Shown here: positions 1,495-21,739 of the stretch, one piece after another
Position numbering within the stretch: position 1 is the stretch's first letter
Layout of the letters: each line of letters starts with the position of its first letter
Source of the DNA: a virus
IMG/VR virus record: IMGVR_UViG_3300030380_004558
Location: 7,597-45,319 of that record
Length of the DNA: 37,723 bases
Reading direction: 5' to 3' (one strand)
Program-made: the position numbers and the translations under genes
Notes under the pieces: model-generated
Told to the model about the DNA's origin: nothing
What the model saw: only the letters and a program-made list of their open reading frames with translations
The model's database searches: none

Positions 1495-1903
1495 CAAAAT
1501 TTTCAGATACACAGGGGTTTTGTATTATAGTATGTCATACGGCGCAGTCTTGTCACAGAAAAGTCAAAAAAAAATTAGCCCCCCCATTGACAAATCTAGG
1601 TCGCATATGAGATTTTTTGCCGAAAAATTTATTGTGATGTGGTACTAGGTTAGCCTAGTGTAGGGTTGGAGACGTTTATCCGTTGACCTTCCCCTAACTA
1701 ATTAAATAATCGGTTAAGGTGAGCCTTCCCTTAGTCCCCGCCCAAAAGAAAACATTGAATAATAAACTTAAATAAATTAGCCATCTCTCATCCCTTTATT
1801 GACGGGCATTTCCAACGACAATCAAATGAGGTACAAAAACATTCAAAGAAATATCTAATATTAATTACTATTTAATAAGAAAATAATTAGGATATAAGAA
1901 TAC

Positions 1904-1918
1904 TATTTTGTACTTTCA
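1904..1918 (+). promoter_or_regulatory. Possible early promoter
   Basis: TATTTTG directly followed by TACTTTCA gives two approximate matches to TAnnTTTG, neither exact and neither with a clear TTG at -33. The position fits a transcript starting near 1920 and carrying the hairpin leader of the first early gene. Weak evidence: location plus partial motif. Confidence 0.3.
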
Positions 1919-1953
1919 CGAAATGAATGACAAACAACATACAAATATTAATC

Positions 1954-1980
1954 GTAACACGCTGACAATCAGCACGTTAC
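1954..1980 (+). other. Hairpin in the leader of the first early gene
   Basis: GTAAC (1954-1958) pairs with GTTAC (1976-1980) and GCTGA (1961-1965) with TCAGC (1969-1973), separated by a symmetric AC/AC internal loop and closed by a CAA loop. It ends 14 bases before the ATG at 1995, so it would sit in the 5' leader and could influence translation or mRNA stability. Confidence 0.5.
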
Positions 1981-1994
1981 ACAATTCAAATAAC

Positions 1995-2345
1995 ATGAAA
2001 AACTTACAACAACTACAAAACAAAGTAAATAACACATTCGAAAACATCGATTCAATCGTTTGGTTTGGGCTTAACTACAACTATGACTTCATCGACCAAT
2101 GTTGGTCTGATAACCCATGCTTAGCTAATCATTTGAATGACAAGTTTTCAATGTGTACACAAGAAATGCTTAAGAGGGATGGAGAAAAGAGTAATGACTA
2201 TGTAGTAAGAAAAGCCGCTATTAGTTATGGAGTCTTCACTAGGTTTATTACAATGTTAGATAGTGCTAATAGAGAAAAGCTATACCAATACATACTTGAA
2301 ACGTATAGTAAAGAATATGGATGGAGCAATACTGATAGGAGATAA
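1995..2345 (+). CDS. Early hypothetical protein (116 aa)
   Basis: No family recognised. It is a mixed-charge soluble protein with several Trp and Tyr residues and a likely helical C-terminal half. The frame is open back to an ATG at 1908. I prefer the ATG at 1995 because the extra 29 residues (Asn/Thr/His-rich) read through a hairpin leader and CAA-rich sequence of the kind found upstream of other starts here. It is the first gene of early operon 1. Its stop codon (2343-2345) directly abuts the type II hammerhead ribozyme. Confidence 0.7.
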   Translation: MKNLQQLQNKVNNTFENIDSIVWFGLNYNYDFIDQCWSDNPCLANHLNDKFSMCTQEMLKRDGEKSNDYVVRKAAISYGVFTRFITMLDSANREKLYQYILETYSKEYGWSNTDRR

Positions 2346-2410
2346 CCGAAACACATCCATGTGGATGTGTCATGCGACAGACCTTAAGTCGCATCTGAAG
2401 AGATGGTCAA
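2341..2410 (+). ncRNA. Hammerhead ribozyme, type II topology
   Basis: All invariant hammerhead nucleotides are present in correct order: C-GAAA (2347-2351); stem III of seven pairs (CACATCC 2352-2358 with GGATGTG 2363-2369, loop ATGT) plus the A15.1-U16.1 pair (2351/2370); cleavage triplet GUC ending at 2371; stem I of seven pairs (ATGCGAC 2372-2378 with GTCGCAT 2388-2394, nine-base loop); core CUGAAGA (2395-2401; the seventh core position may be any base); and the G10.1-C11.1 pair (2402/2347). Predicted cleavage is between 2371 and 2372. Stem II is the open stem and is weak beyond its first pair. The fold starts at the stop codon of the upstream gene and ends about 36 bases before the antirestriction gene, so cleavage would separate the two messages. 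Confidence 0.86.
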
Positions 2411-2437
2411 TTATTAATCAACAAACAACAACAAATT

Positions 2438-3382
2438 ATGACACAAGAACAAATTATCCAAGCAGTAAATGACAGAGTCATTGAGGGCTTAAAAGACAAA
2501 GGTTTACAATGGTTTCGACCATGGAAATCGGGAGAGGAAAATCAACCTCTAAACAGACTATCAAGTAAACATTACAAAGGCTTTAATATATTCCTTTTGA
2601 ATGCTGAGATGATACAACACAATTACACCTCCAACCAATGGCTGACATTCAAGCAAGTATCTCAGATGGATGGCAAGGTTAAGAAAGGCTCAAAGTCAAC
2701 TGAGATTTACTTTTGGAAGTTAGGATATCAAGATATGAAGACTGGTAAATTCTTAACTGACAAACAGATTAAATCAGTCAACCTCAGAGAGAAGTTTACT
2801 AGCAATGGTAAGTCTGTCGATAGGTACAGAAAGACGTTTACTATCAGATACTATAGAGTTTTTAATGTTGACCAAACAACTGGAATTGAGCCAATTGTTT
2901 TTGAGCCGTCAATCAATGCATCCTTTACCAGTAATAAGATGGCTGATTCAATCATTGCTTGCTATATCACAAGACCAAAAGCTGTTAAAGTAAATGTAAT
3001 TAAGTCTTCAGATCAAGCTTACTATAGCCCAAGTAAAGACTTGGTAGTGATGCCTGAAAAAGACTCATTCGTGGACTCTGATTCTTACTATAAGACTTTG
3101 TTCCATGAGTTAGCACATTCAACTGGACATGAGTCTAGACTCAATCGCAAAGGGATTGCCAATGTGAATTTCTTTGGCTCAGAGTCTTATGCTCAAGAGG
3201 AGTTAATTGCTGAGATCAGTTCCATGTATCTTACCGGTCTTTGTGATCTTAATCCAAAAGACTCTGATGATAATAGCCAAGCCTATATCAACGGATGGGT
3301 TAAGAAGTTTAAAGATGAGGCAAAGGAATGCTTTTATGCGATGCAACAAGCAACGAAATGCTCAACCTATATACTAGGATAG
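2438..3382 (+). CDS. ArdC-like antirestriction protein with zincin metallopeptidase domain
   Basis: 314 residues, the usual ArdC length. The N-terminal part (about 1-130) matches the ArdC N-terminal ssDNA-binding domain (DUF1738): a long helix, the W-x-R-P-W segment, YKGFN and a WLTFKQ motif. The C-terminal part is a zincin-like peptidase with HELAHSTGH at residues 223-231 (zinc ligands H223 and H227, catalytic E224). A downstream QEELIAEISS could supply the third ligand. Proteins of this family, found on plasmids and phages, protect incoming DNA from restriction, so early expression makes sense. The start follows a CAACAACAAATT leader and a ribozyme. Function is inferred from family resemblance. 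Confidence 0.88.
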   Translation: MTQEQIIQAVNDRVIEGLKDKGLQWFRPWKSGEENQPLNRLSSKHYKGFNIFLLNAEMIQHNYTSNQWLTFKQVSQMDGKVKKGSKSTEIYFWKLGYQDMKTGKFLTDKQIKSVNLREKFTSNGKSVDRYRKTFTIRYYRVFNVDQTTGIEPIVFEPSINASFTSNKMADSIIACYITRPKAVKVNVIKSSDQAYYSPSKDLVVMPEKDSFVDSDSYYKTLFHELAHSTGHESRLNRKGIANVNFFGSESYAQEELIAEISSMYLTGLCDLNPKDSDDNSQAYINGWVKKFKDEAKECFYAMQQATKCSTYILG

Positions 3383-3389
3383 TATCAAC

Positions 3390-3445
3390 TGCGAGATTGG
3401 ATCATGGAGGGGATCGTTTCCCCTCCTCGCATCGACAATAGTGTC
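3390..3445 (+). other. Structured intergenic element (bulged hairpin plus small hairpin)
   Basis: Stem TGCGAG/CTCGCA (3390-3395 with 3426-3431) stacks on stem GAGGGG/CCCCTC (3407-3412 with 3420-3425), loop ATCGTTT. The 3' strands are contiguous and the 5' side has an 11-base bulge. A second hairpin GACA/TGTC follows (3434-3437 with 3442-3445). It occupies the same position (after a stop, before a CAA-rich leader) as the two ribozyme folds but lacks the hammerhead core, so its class is unknown. There is no U-tract, so it is not an ordinary terminator. Confidence 0.5.
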
Positions 3446-13828: not shown

Positions 13829-16800
13829 TTAATATAAATTTTCTAAGATATCTTTTTCAATATCCTCTAATTCTTTTTCTAAAGCTTTTATTTCATCATC
13901 CTCTCCTTCATATAACTCGTCATATAGCTCTGGAAACATTTTTTTCATTTCTTTTTTAGATTCTTTTGATCTTCCACTGCTTCTTTTTTTACTACCTTTT
14001 ATAGCATATTCAGAAAAATTAAACATTCTTAATATAGCTTCACCCATATCCTTCGAATCCATTACTTTAGAGTAGTTGTTGGCTAATTTTTTTATAGTTA
14101 ATAATGGTAGACCTGTTGCTTGTGCTAAGTCTAAATAAAAATCTTGCATGTATTGAGCCCGCTTCGCTGGATTTTTAGTTTTAGAAGCTCTTTCATATCT
14201 TTCTGATAAACTTTTAGCAATTGCTAAAACACCGACATCTTTACTACTAGTCCAAGGCTTTCCTGTTAATTTATCTCCGATGATTGTAAAAACTTCCCCA
14301 TAAATAAATAAGGCATTTAAATTTCCAAGTATTGCGGATCTCCAAAGATCATCATCATCATCTTCTCTAAAATCTCTTAACAATCCAGGTAAGCCCAGTG
14401 TGACATACTGAAATAAAACCGGCATAAACACGTGATACATGACAAATGTCCTTATATTCTCCCCCCTTGTTCCTTTCCCAGCTTGCTTGTCCCACGCCAT
14501 AAGCTTTCTGTTTAGCGCTCTAACAGCTTGTATTTCTTTTCTTAAATATTGTTTTGGTGTAGTTAAAAACATATTAGCAGCTCTATACAAAGGACCTTGT
14601 TTTTGTAAGAAATCTTTATCTTGCAAGTCGCTTGACTGCTGTGTTCTTTTGGTGTCACGCTCAAATTTAATTATTGCATGATCAATCGCATCTTGCTCAG
14701 TAGCGGTTGGGTTAGCTTTTTTGAACTGGGCTTTATAATAGGAATAATTTGGCGCGCCTCCCAACATTATTGCTGCACGGTCACCAGCTATTACCTGAGC
14801 CATTAAAAAGTTTACTATCCAATCTTTTGTTTTAGCTCCTACAGGCAATACTTGATTAGCATCTTTTTCGCTATAATTTTCAATCTGCCTAAGAATAGAG
14901 TTATTGTTTCTATCTTGCATGTAAACAGAGTTTTCTCTAATTTCTTTAAACACTTGAAGCTGTTCTGTTTTGTTTTTAGCTGCATACTCTAGCCAATTAA
15001 ATATGCCGATATCATTTGCATATGTAAAAGTAGAAGTTAACTGCTTAATCATAATCACAGGATTTATTCCAAGACGTGAGATTAAAAACACACTATTGGT
15101 CATATCTAAAAAGCCTGTTAAGAACTGTCTTTCACCGCCTCTACTAGCAATCTTTTTAATAGCATCGTTTATTAGATCATTTATTTTCTGTCCATGGATA
15201 TCTCTTATTGCTTTCTTTATATTTTGATTATCAAACAATTTAAACACATCTCTAACAGGAACTGCGTATGCAGCAAAATATTCCATGTCATCTATATAGC
15301 TTGTTAAAGCTGTTGTGCCGTCAGTAGGTATTATAGGTTTATTGTTTTTACTTCTAGCTTTGGTAGAGGCAGAACCTACAGAGGTTTGCATTACGCCTTG
15401 ATCACCCAACAAGTCCATTCTTTCTGGATCTCCCTGTCCCTCCCTATTTAGATAGCCTGCATAAAACTTATTCATAGGCATATCAGTACGATAAATCTGC
15501 TTATAAGTTTTATTATAGTGCTTGTAAAGGGTAGGATACAAGACATTAACTTGCCAGTCTGCAAATTCTTTTAGTTTTGGATTTAATTTATTTTCAATTT
15601 CATTCATAACCCTAACATCTTGTCCATTATACATTTTTTCAAATGCTTTTTTATTTGCAGGATCTTTGTATTGATTGTATAAGTAATACATTTGATTTTG
15701 TGAAAGGATTAACTCTTCTTCATTTAAAGCTTTTGTATAAGCGTTATTTTTTTCAATACTGTTTGGATCTTTTTGTAATGCATCTTCAGCTTTCTTTACT
15801 CTATCAGAATCTATATAAATTTGAGTAGGAGTGAGCTGACTAAATTCTTTATTTTTTTGTCTCCAATTTTTTCCTAGATATCTTGACATTTCGGCATCTA
15901 ACATAACTGATAATTCTAGTTTTCTTTTTTTAAATTCTCTCGTTGCCGCATCTATTCTTTCAGTAACCAAGACTTGAGCTCGTCCACCAAAAAGCTCCCC
16001 AGGCAATGAAGATATTCGATCCATCAATCCATCAAGCGCCTCTGCGGTAGCGATTACCCCATTGTCAATGGATCTCATTATATTATTAACTATAGTAGAT
16101 GCTCTATTGCTTAGGGCTTTTCTTTCTTTTTCTGTTTTTCTACCCTTGCTTTCTTTATCTAATTGTTCTTGTAAATCAGGATCGTCTAGATTTAATTTGT
16201 TTCCTGTTATGTCAAAATATAGCTCCCCAAATTGTCTTCTGTATTCCTGAGCTTGAGCTTCAATTTGAGCTTTTAATATACCCCGGCCTTCCTGAACCAA
16301 CCCAACCAATCCTTCGAAAGCCTGATCAAGCGCCTCGGTTTTGTTTAGATCTGTGTCACCCATCAACAAAGCATTGTTTATGTTAATAGCTATTTGAAGA
16401 TCTACCATTTTATTAATAACATCAGGTGATTGATTGGGATCTTGAGCTAATTTTAAAAACTCTGTGTTTAAAACTTTGTTTCTTTCAGATATTTCTTCTT
16501 CCGTAGCGGACTCACTGAGAATAGTATTTTTTATAGCTATAAGTCTTTTTTTAGACTCAAGATCTATCTTGATGGCTTTTTTTCTACCACTTACTAATGT
16601 TTCATATTTTCCGTTTAAAATATTATCAATTCTATTTAATAAAGATTTATTATTTTTTGCAGTGGCTATATCTATAACCTCATCCAAAATATTTTCAATA
16701 TTTGTTGAAGTAGCTAAAGTAACTTTACTAATTAAGTCATTAACCTCTTTATTAGTATATAATTCAGGTGGCAAACTTTTTCTTATAAAAGCTCTGACCT

Positions 16801-19800
16801 GACGCTTAATCTTCTGTAAATCCTTTTCTGTTTTGGTAGATTGACGTACTAATATCCTGGCATTTTTAAGACGTGCCGCCATGTTTTTGGTAGGTCTTTG
16901 ACCTATAGACTTCTGAAGATCAATCTCCATTAGCCTTTGTTGATTGGACAAACTTATTTTAGTTTTTCCTTTTACTTTTGTTTTAACACCTTCATCAACA
17001 TACTCCGGTTGTTTTTGCATGAACTCAATAGCTTTATCCATAATTTGAGCTTCAGACAATTTTTTCTTACGTCTTTTATTTTTTACTCGCTCTCCCTTAC
17101 GAAATGATTCTATTTTATTATAAAGACTTAATCCGGCCTTAGCTCCTCCAATTAAATTAGTAAAACTTTGAGGTAAGGTATTCTCAAGACCTAATGGAAT
17201 ATCCATTACCTCACGAATCTCTTTCATGGTTAACCTTTTGCCATCACTTTTTTTATATTTTCTTTTAAAAAAATCAACTATTAATTCATCTCGAAAACCT
17301 GCGTCTCTACCTTCAGTAACTATATTTAAAGGAGATTTCTGTTGTCTTCTGCGTAGTGGTGTAGGCTTGTATCTTGGTCTGCCTGGTTGTTTTATATATA
17401 ATCCGCCGCCTCTCCCAAATTGATCTTCTCTTGACTTAAACGCCTCAAATCCAAAAGGCTCAACAGCTTTTCGCAGTTCAGATAAATTTGCTGTTTTTGG
17501 AATAAATCCTCGATCATTCATATTAAATAAACGAGTTACATCTTCAATACTTCTTTGTTGTCTTTTTCTTATTTTAGGATCGCCTGTTGTATCTATATTA
17601 TCCGGCACCTTAGCAATATACTGTCCGCCCATTGCTGATCTTGCCGCTTGAGGTTTGGCTCTTTGGCCTAGAGGAGTTTTGTTAACCCCCTTTGGTCGAG
17701 CTGCAGTTTTTTCTGGACCTGCCGGCACGGCGTTAGGATATACTTTTCTTACGTCGACCGCATTATTAAAAACCATAATTGGTTTTCCCGAAATAGTATA
17801 AGGATATGAGGGATGATATCCTGGATCTCCTTCTCTTACTTCTATTATGTCTGAGTTTTTGTCAAACTGAATTGCCGAAATAATATCTCCGTAACCAACA
17901 TCTTTTAAACTTGGAGCGTTAACATAGTCTAACACACCCACGTCAACTTTTGCAGTTGGTGTGATTGGAGGTATTCCAAACTTATCTGCAGATTCTGCAC
18001 TAAAAAATGTTTTAGCAAAAGTTCCTCTAGATAAATAGGATATTTTATTTTCCCCTTCAAACGGCATCAAAGTATTTAACTCATCTAAGTTGCTAATTTG
18101 ACCTGGAAGTCCTTTAGCTTTTAAGGCTGAAGAAATTTCAGTTAATTTTAATTTTTGATTAACATAGTTTAAAAGCTCTTGCGGGCTTACTCCTTTATTA
18201 ATAGCATGTGCTATTTCTGCATTTAGATACTGGAAAAACCGAAAGCTTCCTGTAATACCATCAGGAACTTGAGACATGACAAGGCCCACCCCATCACTCT
18301 GTTTTACCTTGTTTAATATTTTTTGAGCTGCAATCTTCTCTGTAAAAGCCCACCCATATGGTGTGCCGTAAGGATATAAATAACCGCCATAAAAATCAAA
18401 CTCTAACCCTGTAGGGCTTTTTATCCTTCCAAAAGTGGCTTTGTCTGCTGCAAAAACAAAAGCATTTGTTCCGGACAACTCATTAATACTGCCACGCTTT
18501 ACGTTTTTAAAATCGATTGCACCATAGTTTATTTGAAAAGGATCGTCTCGCCGCTGCCTCGGTAGATTTATTGATGGACCATCATCTTCTATATTATCTG
18601 GAATAATACCATCCGCCTCTTTTATTAATTCTCCTTGCTCTAATATTTCGACATCACCCTCGGTTATTTCTTCTCCCGTTCCTACTTTGGTAGCCAAAGT
18701 GTTTAAAAGATCTATTACATCTTCATCTGTTTTGGTAAATTCAGAAATATTTAAATCAACACCAAAAGTGCTTGCTAAATTTTCAATAAATTTAATTACT
18801 ACATTTTTTTGTGGCTTACTTAAGGTTTTATATTCAGAAGACATTATGCCTATTAATTCAGCTAGCCTTTCTTCGTTTTGCAATTCACTTACATTTTCGT
18901 AAGACTGAGCAAATGTGTCAATTCTTTTAGCAAGATCGCTGTCATCAGGCAAAGTTTTTCTTACAGAAGTCATCATTGTTTCTGCAACTTGAGCGGCTTT
19001 TGGATCAGTTTTTATTTTACTCAGAAATACTGCGTGAAATATCTCATGAGGAACTGTGGATGCTGTTGCGCTTGAAAGATTTACATGTATTGTGTCTCCA
19101 ATAAGCTCCGCTCGCCCTGGAGCAGCATACTTTTCAAACTCTTCGTTTGATTCATGTAGTATTATTCTAGTATTAGGGAGTAGTTTAGCAATAGATTGTG
19201 CTCCTAATCTTGCTAGACCTATAACTCTATCAACCCTAGTTTTATTGTCAACTGTCAGCGTTTGCTTTTTGCCGGCCCTATTGATGCTTAAATTATCAAA
19301 AACTGTATCTGTAGTGTCGGCAGTTTCATCACCAAAAAAAGCATCTATGTCTTGTTGTTCCTCCGTTAAAACGGTGTCATCTTCTACCGCTGCATTTAAA
19401 TCAGCATCTTTAATATCAGCAGTCTTAACTGATTCTGCCCTACTAATAGCTTCTATTTCAGAATCTATTTTTTTAATTTCCTCTAACTGCTTAGTATATA
19501 AAACAGGATCTTTATTTTCTATTTGTTTTTGCAACGATTCTTTACGCTGTAACCGTCCCATTATTTGTTTTTGAGATTCTAAAGGAAGGTCAGCGGGAAT
19601 CTGATCTATTAATGCAGAGGCCTGATTAAAATCATCTATTTGTTTTTGTCCTTGTTCTTTAGTAAGCTCCCCGTTATTTATTTTTTGTTTAATATCGGTA
19701 ACAAAAGCTGACTGAAACTTAGAGTCTTTTCTTATAGCTTTAAACATGTCAAAAACATCATTATCGACTTGTGTGAAATCTTGTTTACTGTAAGCATCAC

Positions 19801-21739
19801 TTATTGCTGGAAGAGTTCCTAGGACAAATCCACCTACAGCCTCCTGAGCCCCAGCCCTAAATACTTCTCCCAATCCTTCAGCAAAGTTTTTAGGATTTTG
19901 AAATAGATCTTTTTCTTTTATGTTATTAAAAAGTGCCTTTCCACCTATGTCAGCTATCTGTTGCATTGCCCCTGTTTCGAACTCAGCTAATGTAGCTGCT
20001 GTTACTGTTGCACCACCTCTTCCAAGGCTATTTGTTACATACTTTCGAACAAAATTTCTAAACGTGCCTTCTGTTACATCATCCGGCATATTTTTTATAA
20101 TCCTTGAAAATATCTTTCGTACAAAAGGTTGTTTGTCTATTATGTTTCTAAAACCTACATTTTCCAAAACACCAGAAACAATGGCAAGGGGAAGTTTCAA
20201 TGATGCTTTTTCATTTTCAGTAAGATCCAAGTCTTGAAATTCCTCTTCGTAATAATCTGATACTTGAGAAACTAGATTAGCAACACGAGTAAACTTCTCT
20301 GGATTTAAAAAAGCGGGAATAGACCCAGCAAGTCCTATTAAGGCACCTGCCCAAAACTCTTTCTTTTTTGCTTCCATGTATTGTTCGCTTACATTCTTTC
20401 CTCCAGTAAGCTCAACAAAATACTCTCTTATGCCAGGTAAGGTTTCTCCTTTTTTTGTTTTTTTTACTTCATCAATAATTTCACTTACTAGTTGGCCGCT
20501 TTGAGTTATATTCTCTGTAATTATTTGACCTGGCGCACCTACACCTGCGCTTGTTGTCGTAGTTTTTGTGTCTATAATCTCAGGATATAAACCTTTTATT
20601 TGCGTGTATGTTAGTTCTTCAAAGTTATCAGGAAGTGTTTTTCCTATTGCAATAGCCTTTTCTCTAAACCTTTCTTTAAACTCTGAAGGAGGTAGCCCTG
20701 CAAACTCTCTAAGCTCTGTGGCAATATCTATACCATATCCCGTATATCCCGCTCCTATACGTCCCACTCCTCGTGCAAATTCCTCTCTAAGTGCTTGTCC
20801 TAAGTTTCCTTGTCGAGCACTCATAGCAGTGTATTCTCCAATACTCTCTTCTAATTTAGCGCGTCTATTAAAATAAGAGTCTTTGTATTTTATTATTTCC
20901 TCTAAAGACTTATTAAGTTGTTTTTGCTGATTGTTGTAATTTATAATACGCTGACGCTGCGCAGATCTTTGCGCGTCACTCAATGACTCCAATGCTTTTT
21001 TTTCTTGATCTAATAGAGACTGGTTTTTTAAATAATTCTGCATTCCCTCGTTTAAAGTTTCTGCTTCCATATTTAAAACTTTGATAGACTCCACTACTTC
21101 TTTATTTGTTTCAAATATTATTTTGTTTCTATCATATACCTTCTCGTCTTTTCTAATATTTATACTTTGTTGAATATTGTCTTTTATAAAGTCATCTAAT
21201 TTTCTCGCTTCTTCTATGTTTGTTTTTGTTGTAAAAGCATCAAGACCAATAGTCATCTCATTTCCATTGGCTGATTTAACATTCATTTTATCATATCCAA
21301 CTCCTGTTTCTTCAAAAGTAAACCCTTCATTGCCGTATAAATAATTTAATCTTTCGACCACAAACTCTTCATCTTTGGCAATAAGATCAGGTTTAATTTT
21401 AAGTTCAGAAAAATCTTCAGGCTCTTCTACGGTAGAAACTACTGTGGCTGTAGGCGCTGTTGTTTCAGTTTGTACTTCAGTTGGTGCTGTTTGAGGAGTC
21501 GTGGGAGACACCGATAAACCATCCCCTGAATCTGAAGCCATACCTTCTTTTTTTTTTAAGCCCCATGGCTCGCTAAAATTTTCAAGAGAAGTTTTTGACA
21601 TTAAACCTTTTTCAATACCCATATCGTATATGGATTTGATCTGGTCTTCGTTAGCTTGAGAAAAAACATCAAAGCTTACAGCGTCAGTGATTAATCCCGC
21701 TTTTAAGTACGCATCATATATTTGTTGTAGCTTATCCAT
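13829..21739 (-). CDS. Giant internal/ejection virion protein with HEIFH metallopeptidase motif
   Basis: 2636 residues, largest gene in the window. A Pro/Thr-rich linker lies near 75-110, long coiled coils at about 160-310 and 680-780, then a zincin motif VPHEIFHAVFL with H898, E899 and H902. A compact domain follows at about 1050-1330, a basic Lys/Arg-rich helical region at 1400-1800, and a C-terminal domain (about 2200-2560) resembling the large polyvalent protein-associated domain LPD38 (SRLGINPVIMIKQLTS, GDRAAIMLGGAP, KQYLRKEIQAVRALNR), with a hydrophobic stretch near 2430-2450. Position after gp14-like and gp15-like genes suggests the role of T7 gp16: ejected first to form a trans-envelope channel. 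No transglycosylase is obvious, and the peptidase motif may replace it. Its ATG overlaps the previous stop (TAATG). Confidence 0.75.
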   Translation of the reverse strand: MDKLQQIYDAYLKAGLITDAVSFDVFSQANEDQIKSIYDMGIEKGLMSKTSLENFSEPWGLKKKEGMASDSGDGLSVSPTTPQTAPTEVQTETTAPTATVVSTVEEPEDFSELKIKPDLIAKDEEFVVERLNYLYGNEGFTFEETGVGYDKMNVKSANGNEMTIGLDAFTTKTNIEEARKLDDFIKDNIQQSINIRKDEKVYDRNKIIFETNKEVVESIKVLNMEAETLNEGMQNYLKNQSLLDQEKKALESLSDAQRSAQRQRIINYNNQQKQLNKSLEEIIKYKDSYFNRRAKLEESIGEYTAMSARQGNLGQALREEFARGVGRIGAGYTGYGIDIATELREFAGLPPSEFKERFREKAIAIGKTLPDNFEELTYTQIKGLYPEIIDTKTTTTSAGVGAPGQIITENITQSGQLVSEIIDEVKKTKKGETLPGIREYFVELTGGKNVSEQYMEAKKKEFWAGALIGLAGSIPAFLNPEKFTRVANLVSQVSDYYEEEFQDLDLTENEKASLKLPLAIVSGVLENVGFRNIIDKQPFVRKIFSRIIKNMPDDVTEGTFRNFVRKYVTNSLGRGGATVTAATLAEFETGAMQQIADIGGKALFNNIKEKDLFQNPKNFAEGLGEVFRAGAQEAVGGFVLGTLPAISDAYSKQDFTQVDNDVFDMFKAIRKDSKFQSAFVTDIKQKINNGELTKEQGQKQIDDFNQASALIDQIPADLPLESQKQIMGRLQRKESLQKQIENKDPVLYTKQLEEIKKIDSEIEAISRAESVKTADIKDADLNAAVEDDTVLTEEQQDIDAFFGDETADTTDTVFDNLSINRAGKKQTLTVDNKTRVDRVIGLARLGAQSIAKLLPNTRIILHESNEEFEKYAAPGRAELIGDTIHVNLSSATASTVPHEIFHAVFLSKIKTDPKAAQVAETMMTSVRKTLPDDSDLAKRIDTFAQSYENVSELQNEERLAELIGIMSSEYKTLSKPQKNVVIKFIENLASTFGVDLNISEFTKTDEDVIDLLNTLATKVGTGEEITEGDVEILEQGELIKEADGIIPDNIEDDGPSINLPRQRRDDPFQINYGAIDFKNVKRGSINELSGTNAFVFAADKATFGRIKSPTGLEFDFYGGYLYPYGTPYGWAFTEKIAAQKILNKVKQSDGVGLVMSQVPDGITGSFRFFQYLNAEIAHAINKGVSPQELLNYVNQKLKLTEISSALKAKGLPGQISNLDELNTLMPFEGENKISYLSRGTFAKTFFSAESADKFGIPPITPTAKVDVGVLDYVNAPSLKDVGYGDIISAIQFDKNSDIIEVREGDPGYHPSYPYTISGKPIMVFNNAVDVRKVYPNAVPAGPEKTAARPKGVNKTPLGQRAKPQAARSAMGGQYIAKVPDNIDTTGDPKIRKRQQRSIEDVTRLFNMNDRGFIPKTANLSELRKAVEPFGFEAFKSREDQFGRGGGLYIKQPGRPRYKPTPLRRRQQKSPLNIVTEGRDAGFRDELIVDFFKRKYKKSDGKRLTMKEIREVMDIPLGLENTLPQSFTNLIGGAKAGLSLYNKIESFRKGERVKNKRRKKKLSEAQIMDKAIEFMQKQPEYVDEGVKTKVKGKTKISLSNQQRLMEIDLQKSIGQRPTKNMAARLKNARILVRQSTKTEKDLQKIKRQVRAFIRKSLPPELYTNKEVNDLISKVTLATSTNIENILDEVIDIATAKNNKSLLNRIDNILNGKYETLVSGRKKAIKIDLESKKRLIAIKNTILSESATEEEISERNKVLNTEFLKLAQDPNQSPDVINKMVDLQIAININNALLMGDTDLNKTEALDQAFEGLVGLVQEGRGILKAQIEAQAQEYRRQFGELYFDITGNKLNLDDPDLQEQLDKESKGRKTEKERKALSNRASTIVNNIMRSIDNGVIATAEALDGLMDRISSLPGELFGGRAQVLVTERIDAATREFKKRKLELSVMLDAEMSRYLGKNWRQKNKEFSQLTPTQIYIDSDRVKKAEDALQKDPNSIEKNNAYTKALNEEELILSQNQMYYLYNQYKDPANKKAFEKMYNGQDVRVMNEIENKLNPKLKEFADWQVNVLYPTLYKHYNKTYKQIYRTDMPMNKFYAGYLNREGQGDPERMDLLGDQGVMQTSVGSASTKARSKNNKPIIPTDGTTALTSYIDDMEYFAAYAVPVRDVFKLFDNQNIKKAIRDIHGQKINDLINDAIKKIASRGGERQFLTGFLDMTNSVFLISRLGINPVIMIKQLTSTFTYANDIGIFNWLEYAAKNKTEQLQVFKEIRENSVYMQDRNNNSILRQIENYSEKDANQVLPVGAKTKDWIVNFLMAQVIAGDRAAIMLGGAPNYSYYKAQFKKANPTATEQDAIDHAIIKFERDTKRTQQSSDLQDKDFLQKQGPLYRAANMFLTTPKQYLRKEIQAVRALNRKLMAWDKQAGKGTRGENIRTFVMYHVFMPVLFQYVTLGLPGLLRDFREDDDDDLWRSAILGNLNALFIYGEVFTIIGDKLTGKPWTSSKDVGVLAIAKSLSERYERASKTKNPAKRAQYMQDFYLDLAQATGLPLLTIKKLANNYSKVMDSKDMGEAILRMFNFSEYAIKGSKKRSSGRSKESKKEMKKMFPELYDELYEGEDDEIKALEKELEDIEKDILENLY

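Follow-up and report, generated by a model that had tools for sequence, protein, structure and literature searches.

A type II hammerhead ribozyme ahead of ardC in a viral genome, and the recurrence of hammerheads beside ardC in other phages

The ardC Locus

The window analyzed here is a stretch of 37,723 nucleotides that forms part of a 45.3 kb virus record. An early gene of 116 amino acids is followed on the same strand by an antirestriction gene, and a complete type II hammerhead ribozyme lies between them at 2344-2412(+), confirming what the initial annotation had observed. The features of the locus are:

1995-2345 (+): upstream early gene, 116 aa, assigned to no known family, with a stop codon (2343-2345) that adjoins the ribozyme
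2344-2412 (+): type II hammerhead ribozyme; covariance-model envelope, supported by models R1 and R2 and by shuffles
2345-2347 (+): stem II 5′ strand ACC; C2347-G2402 pair, C2346.A2403 mismatch, A2345-U2404 pair
2348-2350 (+): core G12-A13-A14, from sequence; A15.1 is 2351
2351-2370 (+): stem III hairpin ACACAUCCAUGUGGAUGUGU, including the A15.1-U16.1 pair
2371 (+): C17; cleavage predicted between 2371 and 2372 from the hammerhead consensus and the GUC triplet
2372-2394 (+): stem I hairpin AUGCGAC-AGACCUUAA-GUCGCAU
2380-2383 (+): loop I pseudoknot strand GACC
2395-2401 (+): core CUGAAGA (C3-A9), from sequence
2402-2404 (+): stem II 3′ strand GAU, from sequence
2405-2408 (+): pseudoknot partner GGUC; alternatively its GGU pairs with ACC 2345-2347
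2410-2437 (+): ardC leader, AUUAUUAAUC and a CAA-rich stretch up to the start codon
2438-3382 (+): ardC antirestriction gene, 314 aa, by Pfam, PHROGs, and PDB matches

The upstream gene has no match in Pfam or PHROGs, and no relatives were found among the viral contigs (viral_contigs). A nucleotide-similarity search of the phage collection with the window also returned no match. The downstream gene, initially described as ArdC-like, is a true ardC. Its product matches PF08401 (e-value 9.9e-25) and PF18818 (1.1e-32) in Pfam, the anti-restriction family phrog_7245 in PHROGs (1.1e-69), and the ArdC structures 6i89/6sna in the PDB (4e-33). The protein combines ArdcN and MPTase-PolyVal (zincin-like metallopeptidase) domains, and the HE..H motif consists of the invariant residues H223, E224, and H227. 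With the upstream stop codon at 2343-2345 and the ardC start at 2438, the ribozyme sits between the two genes as first proposed, 2 nt from the stop and 36 nt from the start. It is a single-copy element; no second hammerhead was found in the remainder of the 45.3 kb record. Elsewhere in the window, one open reading frame (ORF) of 2636 aa (13829-21739, - strand) lies on the same strand as the structural genes.

A box, ATTACTAATC, that resembles the window leader precedes genes of related phages, and ATTATTAATC occurs once in the window, before ardC only. In two of the related contigs the order is hairpin, ATTACTAATC box, start codon (L290 at 851, 1251, and 2250; L003 at 1396, 1703, and 3007), and this unit is repeated before most of their genes. 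We considered whether this hairpin and leader could be a decayed hammerhead and rejected the idea because the core letters are absent.

Structure of the Ribozyme

All of the invariant hammerhead nucleotides are found in order and in the place first reported: GAAA at 2348-2351, the UH cleavage site at 2370-2371, and CUGAAGA at 2395-2401. Loops close stems I and III and stem II is open, which is the type II topology. The initial annotation had read two seven-pair stems. Stem I does have seven pairs (2372-2378/2388-2394, with loop I AGACCUUAA at 2379-2387), whereas stem III is longer (2351-2359/2362-2370), with nine pairs possible and realistically eight, closed by an AUGU loop, in the predicted fold. 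Both hairpins are present in the minimum-energy and centroid structures, and the folding z-score is -2.24. The GUC cleavage triplet (G2369-U2370-C2371, predicted cut after C2371) and the G10.1-C11.1 pair (G2402-C2347, the first pair of stem II) were likewise read correctly.

Stem II is short. The G2402-C2347 pair is followed by an A2403.C2346 mismatch and then by a possible U2404-A2345 pair, in which A2345 is the last base of the upstream stop codon. Directly after stem II, GGUC (2405-2408) can pair with GACC in loop I (2380-2383) to form a four-pair pseudoknot. A pseudoknot of four pairs is weak on its own, as about 7% of random tails would yield one. Across the family, a Watson-Crick pseudoknot of at least four pairs at the right offset is found in 35/71 phage hammerheads, against a mean of 6.0 and a maximum of 15 in 2000 permutations. 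One phage hammerhead (L087) has a stem II of G-C, A.C, and C-G followed by a six-pair pseudoknot, and it passes the Rfam Hammerhead_II cut-off. In the four closest look-alikes (L188, L195, L199, and L201), the core is followed by GAC-GGTCA and loop I contains TGACC; the counterparts in the window are GAT-GGTCA and GACC. These four are short viral contigs, and the L201 hammerhead is located between a stop codon and the next start, like that of the window. In a competing fold, stem II would be formed by ACC/GGU with a three-base insertion after A9, which excludes the pseudoknot.

In type II hammerheads, such a pseudoknot is common but not universal. Its occurrence and its importance for speed have been described, and a single pair in stem II can suffice for activity (Perreault et al., 2011; PMC3088659). 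The initial annotation had called stem II weak and open. The weakness is confirmed, and the stem is better described as backed by the pseudoknot between loop I and the 3′ tail. Judged from sequence, the weak stem II is probably offset by the loop I pseudoknot, a known type II arrangement.

Chance and Family-Model Searches

A descriptor that combines the complete core with the two stems matches once in the window. We shuffled the window with a first-order Markov model and searched both strands of 17,118 shuffles. None carried the core with at least 7 + 7 pairs, and 14 matches had at least 6 + 6 pairs. The view that the combination is very unlikely to arise by chance is thus upheld, as 0/17,118 shuffles equalled both stem lengths.

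The initial annotation had proposed a covariance search with the Rfam type II family as a check, and here the outcome was negative: Hammerhead_II does not report the window element. When Rfam's 4227 models were run on the window, no hammerhead was found at gathering scores or by e-value. The element scores below the 37-bit gathering score of RF02276, which is a detection threshold and not a defining property. At nine positive-control loci Rfam reports 10 hammerheads, where the descriptor finds about 30; the Rfam type II model is therefore insensitive in these phages.

We built covariance models from type II hammerheads of other phages, leaving the window out. A pattern scan of viral contigs yielded more than 120 stretches in which 126 distinct type II hammerheads are readable, the window included. 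Model R1 was built from 12 sequences and R2 from 104 matches; a simpler MAFFT alignment (A1), in which several rows were misaligned, was kept out of model building. With filters off, both R1 (26.9 bits, e-value 2.3e-6) and R2 (36.4 bits, 1.2e-8) rank the element first in the window, and the next-best window matches (0.21 and 0.79) are about five to eight orders of magnitude behind. With default speed filters, R1 found nothing in the window. AU-rich type II hammerheads of phages escape the standard Rfam search, and published counts are probably too low for this reason.

Hammerheads Beside ardC in Other Phages

About 135 viral ardC neighborhoods contain 32 hammerheads, which include types I, II, and III and without exception lie on the ardC strand. 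A three-topology descriptor identified them: 19 (window counted) came from an initial set of 66 ardC loci and 13 from another 70, where shuffles predict 0.13 and about 0.10, respectively (about 0.2 in total). Matches of R2 over the ardC neighborhoods adjoin the gene, again all on its strand, and inspection by eye recognized type I and type III hammerheads among them. Rfam matches were obtained beside ardC in four contigs (L292, L043, L052, and L045), of which only L292 reaches its family cut-off (RF00008, 48.5 bits, at the cut-off). Two RF00008 matches in L043 (46.2 and 37.4 bits) flank ardC on both sides, and the RF00163 and RF02275 matches are sub-threshold.

Three control sets totaling 2.1 Mb of phage DNA contained no hammerheads: 79 loci around a PD-(D/E)XK (exo)nuclease gene (483 kb), 79 loci around a helicase gene of the window's own phage group (522 kb), and 120 stretches not selected by gene (1.12 Mb). 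A Fisher test of about 22/135 ardC loci against 0/158 control loci gives a p-value of about 1e-8, with related contigs treated as independent and with control loci drawn from fewer phage groups. In nine contigs scanned over almost their full length, 15/15 matches of types I-III fall within about 2 kb of ardC; the contigs themselves had been picked for a hammerhead near ardC, but no selection applied to their remainder. Conversely, ardC is present in 5/84 loci picked only for a hammerhead and in 0/278 others, and for this reason we regard ardC as one preferred neighbor of hammerheads and not the sole one. The phage collection gave one match in 13 scanned ardC regions, located one gene downstream of ardC (ctQWt234, MW202801), and the ardC loci of 14 bacterial or archaeal genomes gave none.

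The hammerheads usually begin no more than about 10 nt from the upstream stop codon, with a gap of 13-40 nt between their end and the following start codon, and the window hammerhead, with spacings of 2 and 36 nt, fits this pattern. The ardC boundary holds 14/29 hammerheads, where a random choice of gap would give about 6, a rough comparison as ORFs were called simply.

Relatives and Evolution

On a tree of 118 ArdC proteins, the presence or absence of a nearby hammerhead requires at least 14 changes (the labels exclude a weak match in L044 and a match inside an ORF in L318). Type III hammerheads form one clade, and types I and II need several changes. The window ArdC belongs to a well-supported group of 13 in which there is no other hammerhead. 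Its nearest ardC relatives (L002 and L290, 73% identical, and L003) have ardC without the ribozyme, and L290 and L003 have plain hairpins and the ATTACTAATC box before ardC and neighboring genes. Close relatives by other genes have neither ardC nor a hammerhead. A homologous hammerhead was sought in the close relatives examined and none was found; with no relatives of the upstream gene found either, no orthologous hammerhead was obtained, and hence no within-lineage covariation. The simplest reading is a recent joint gain of ardC and ribozyme, or gain of the ribozyme at ardC.

Proposed Mechanism and Alternatives

The element is probably a functional type II hammerhead in the early transcript, whose co-transcriptional cut would separate the ardC message. 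The interpretation of type, cleavage site, and position made initially is supported. Sequence, predicted fold, family match, position, and the recurrent placement beside ardC can be read directly; cleavage, its timing, and its effect on ardC expression we infer. As RNA polymerase moves from the upstream gene into ardC, the nascent RNA would fold stems III and I, the short stem II would be held by the pseudoknot between loop I and the 3′ tail, and the RNA would cut itself between C2371 and A2372. The upstream message would then end in the stem III hairpin right after its stop codon, with a 2′,3′-cyclic phosphate, and the ardC message would start with the stem I hairpin and a 5′-OH, 66 nt ahead of its start codon. 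Such a cut would uncouple decay and translation of the two messages, and the 5′-OH and hairpin should resist 5′-end-dependent decay of the ardC message. Hammerheads that phages carry at such junctions, three of them around ardA, cleave both in vitro and upon expression in E. coli (Perreault et al., 2011), and cleavage by these published relatives at comparable junctions raises the prior for cleavage in the window.

Two unrelated intergenic hairpins, e.g., terminator-like ones, could happen to bear the letters of a hammerhead core, and the intergenic regions of relatives are indeed rich in real hairpins, which shuffles do not model. This origin is nevertheless highly improbable in view of the shuffle result, the lack of strong matches in the 2.1 Mb of genuine phage sequence used as control, the full-length covariance match, and the recurrence of hammerheads beside ardC elsewhere. 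The element could also be a decayed or slow hammerhead that has kept its fold, with a damaged stem II and short pseudoknot, and cleaves too slowly to matter. In that case its hairpins would act only as passive ends of the RNA, as a weak terminator, or as a site for an RNase. Decay would fit the A2403.C2346 mismatch and four-pair pseudoknot as well as the plain hairpins at the equivalent place in L290 and L003. In a ribozyme whose stem II has a single pair, shortening the pseudoknot from six pairs to four reduced activity about 20-fold (Perreault et al., 2011). We consider decay unlikely, however, as all catalytic bases and both closed stems are intact, which would not be expected in a drifting relic, and the L087 hammerhead with the same G-C/A.C/pair stem II still passes the Rfam cut-off.

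A different question is whether hammerheads near ardC process its mRNA at all. They may instead hitch-hike with early-gene cassettes that are mobile or recombine, or they may serve another function, such as circularizing or ligating RNA. The joint absence of ardC and hammerhead from close relatives would fit this, as would the 15/29 hammerheads that are beside neighboring genes and not adjacent to ardC, and the confinement of type III cases to one ArdC clade. Against it, three topologies occur at the same type of junction beside homologous genes, and the ArdC tree needs at least 14 presence/absence changes, with the window in a 13-row clade without another hammerhead. On balance we find hitch-hiking or another role rather doubtful, though not far-fetched.

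Comparison with Known Systems

The window element shares with the RF02276 type II family (Perreault et al., 2011) the order GAAA-stem III-UH-stem I-CUGANGA, an open and short stem II, the pseudoknot between loop I and the tail, and an intergenic location in phage. It differs in the A.C mismatch of stem II, the AU-richer stems, and the pseudoknot of four pairs. The type III (RF00008), type I (RF00163), and HH9 (RF02275) hammerheads beside ardC in L292, L043, L052, and L045 have the same junction position and strand but a different circular permutation. In T7-like phages, RNase III processes the early transcript between genes. Our proposal resembles that system in that a polycistronic early transcript is cut between genes and left with hairpin ends; there a host protein cuts, whereas here the RNA would cut itself.

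ArdA and ArdC are unrelated proteins. Like the window element, the ardA hammerheads directly adjoin an antirestriction gene within a phage-type operon, but in the window a single type II copy precedes ardC, and other phages have types I and III there. Hammerheads flank ardA in an Agrobacterium tumefaciens prophage and precede it in Legionella; both these and type II hammerheads were published in 2011, when a link between phage hammerheads and antirestriction was suggested for ardA (Perreault et al., 2011). Our literature search, which covered sources outside subscription journals, found no report that names ardC with hammerheads. The window element thus belongs to a known ribozyme class, and its greater interest lies in how often hammerheads recur beside ardC. 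We put forward, tentatively, that phages may repeatedly and independently have placed hammerheads of all three topologies at antirestriction-gene boundaries (ardC in the present survey, ardA previously), where a separate message would give an advantage at DNA entry. If true, ribozyme processing would be a counter-defence expression strategy. A sharp and repeated link to antirestriction makes the role of phage and bacterial hammerheads, a question since 2011, testable.

Other Hammerhead Arrangements

Several viral contigs carry more than one hammerhead. In L043 (2889-2937 and 3959-4009), and also in L063, type III hammerheads bracket ardC; a strong GGGGGACTTCGGTTCCCCC hairpin precedes the upstream hammerhead in L043, and that contig, of 36.5 kb, has no further match. 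Between successive genes, L091 has nine type II hammerheads and L078 has four. L112 has tandem type II hammerheads (1864-3430), five in one contig, in which an additional U separates A9 from stem II (CTGACGA-T-GGTC). A type II hammerhead directly after ardC in L062 (3854-3928) has an A-A opposition at 10.1/11.1 and a six-pair pseudoknot (CTTCCC/GGGAAG), and may be a core-proximal variant.
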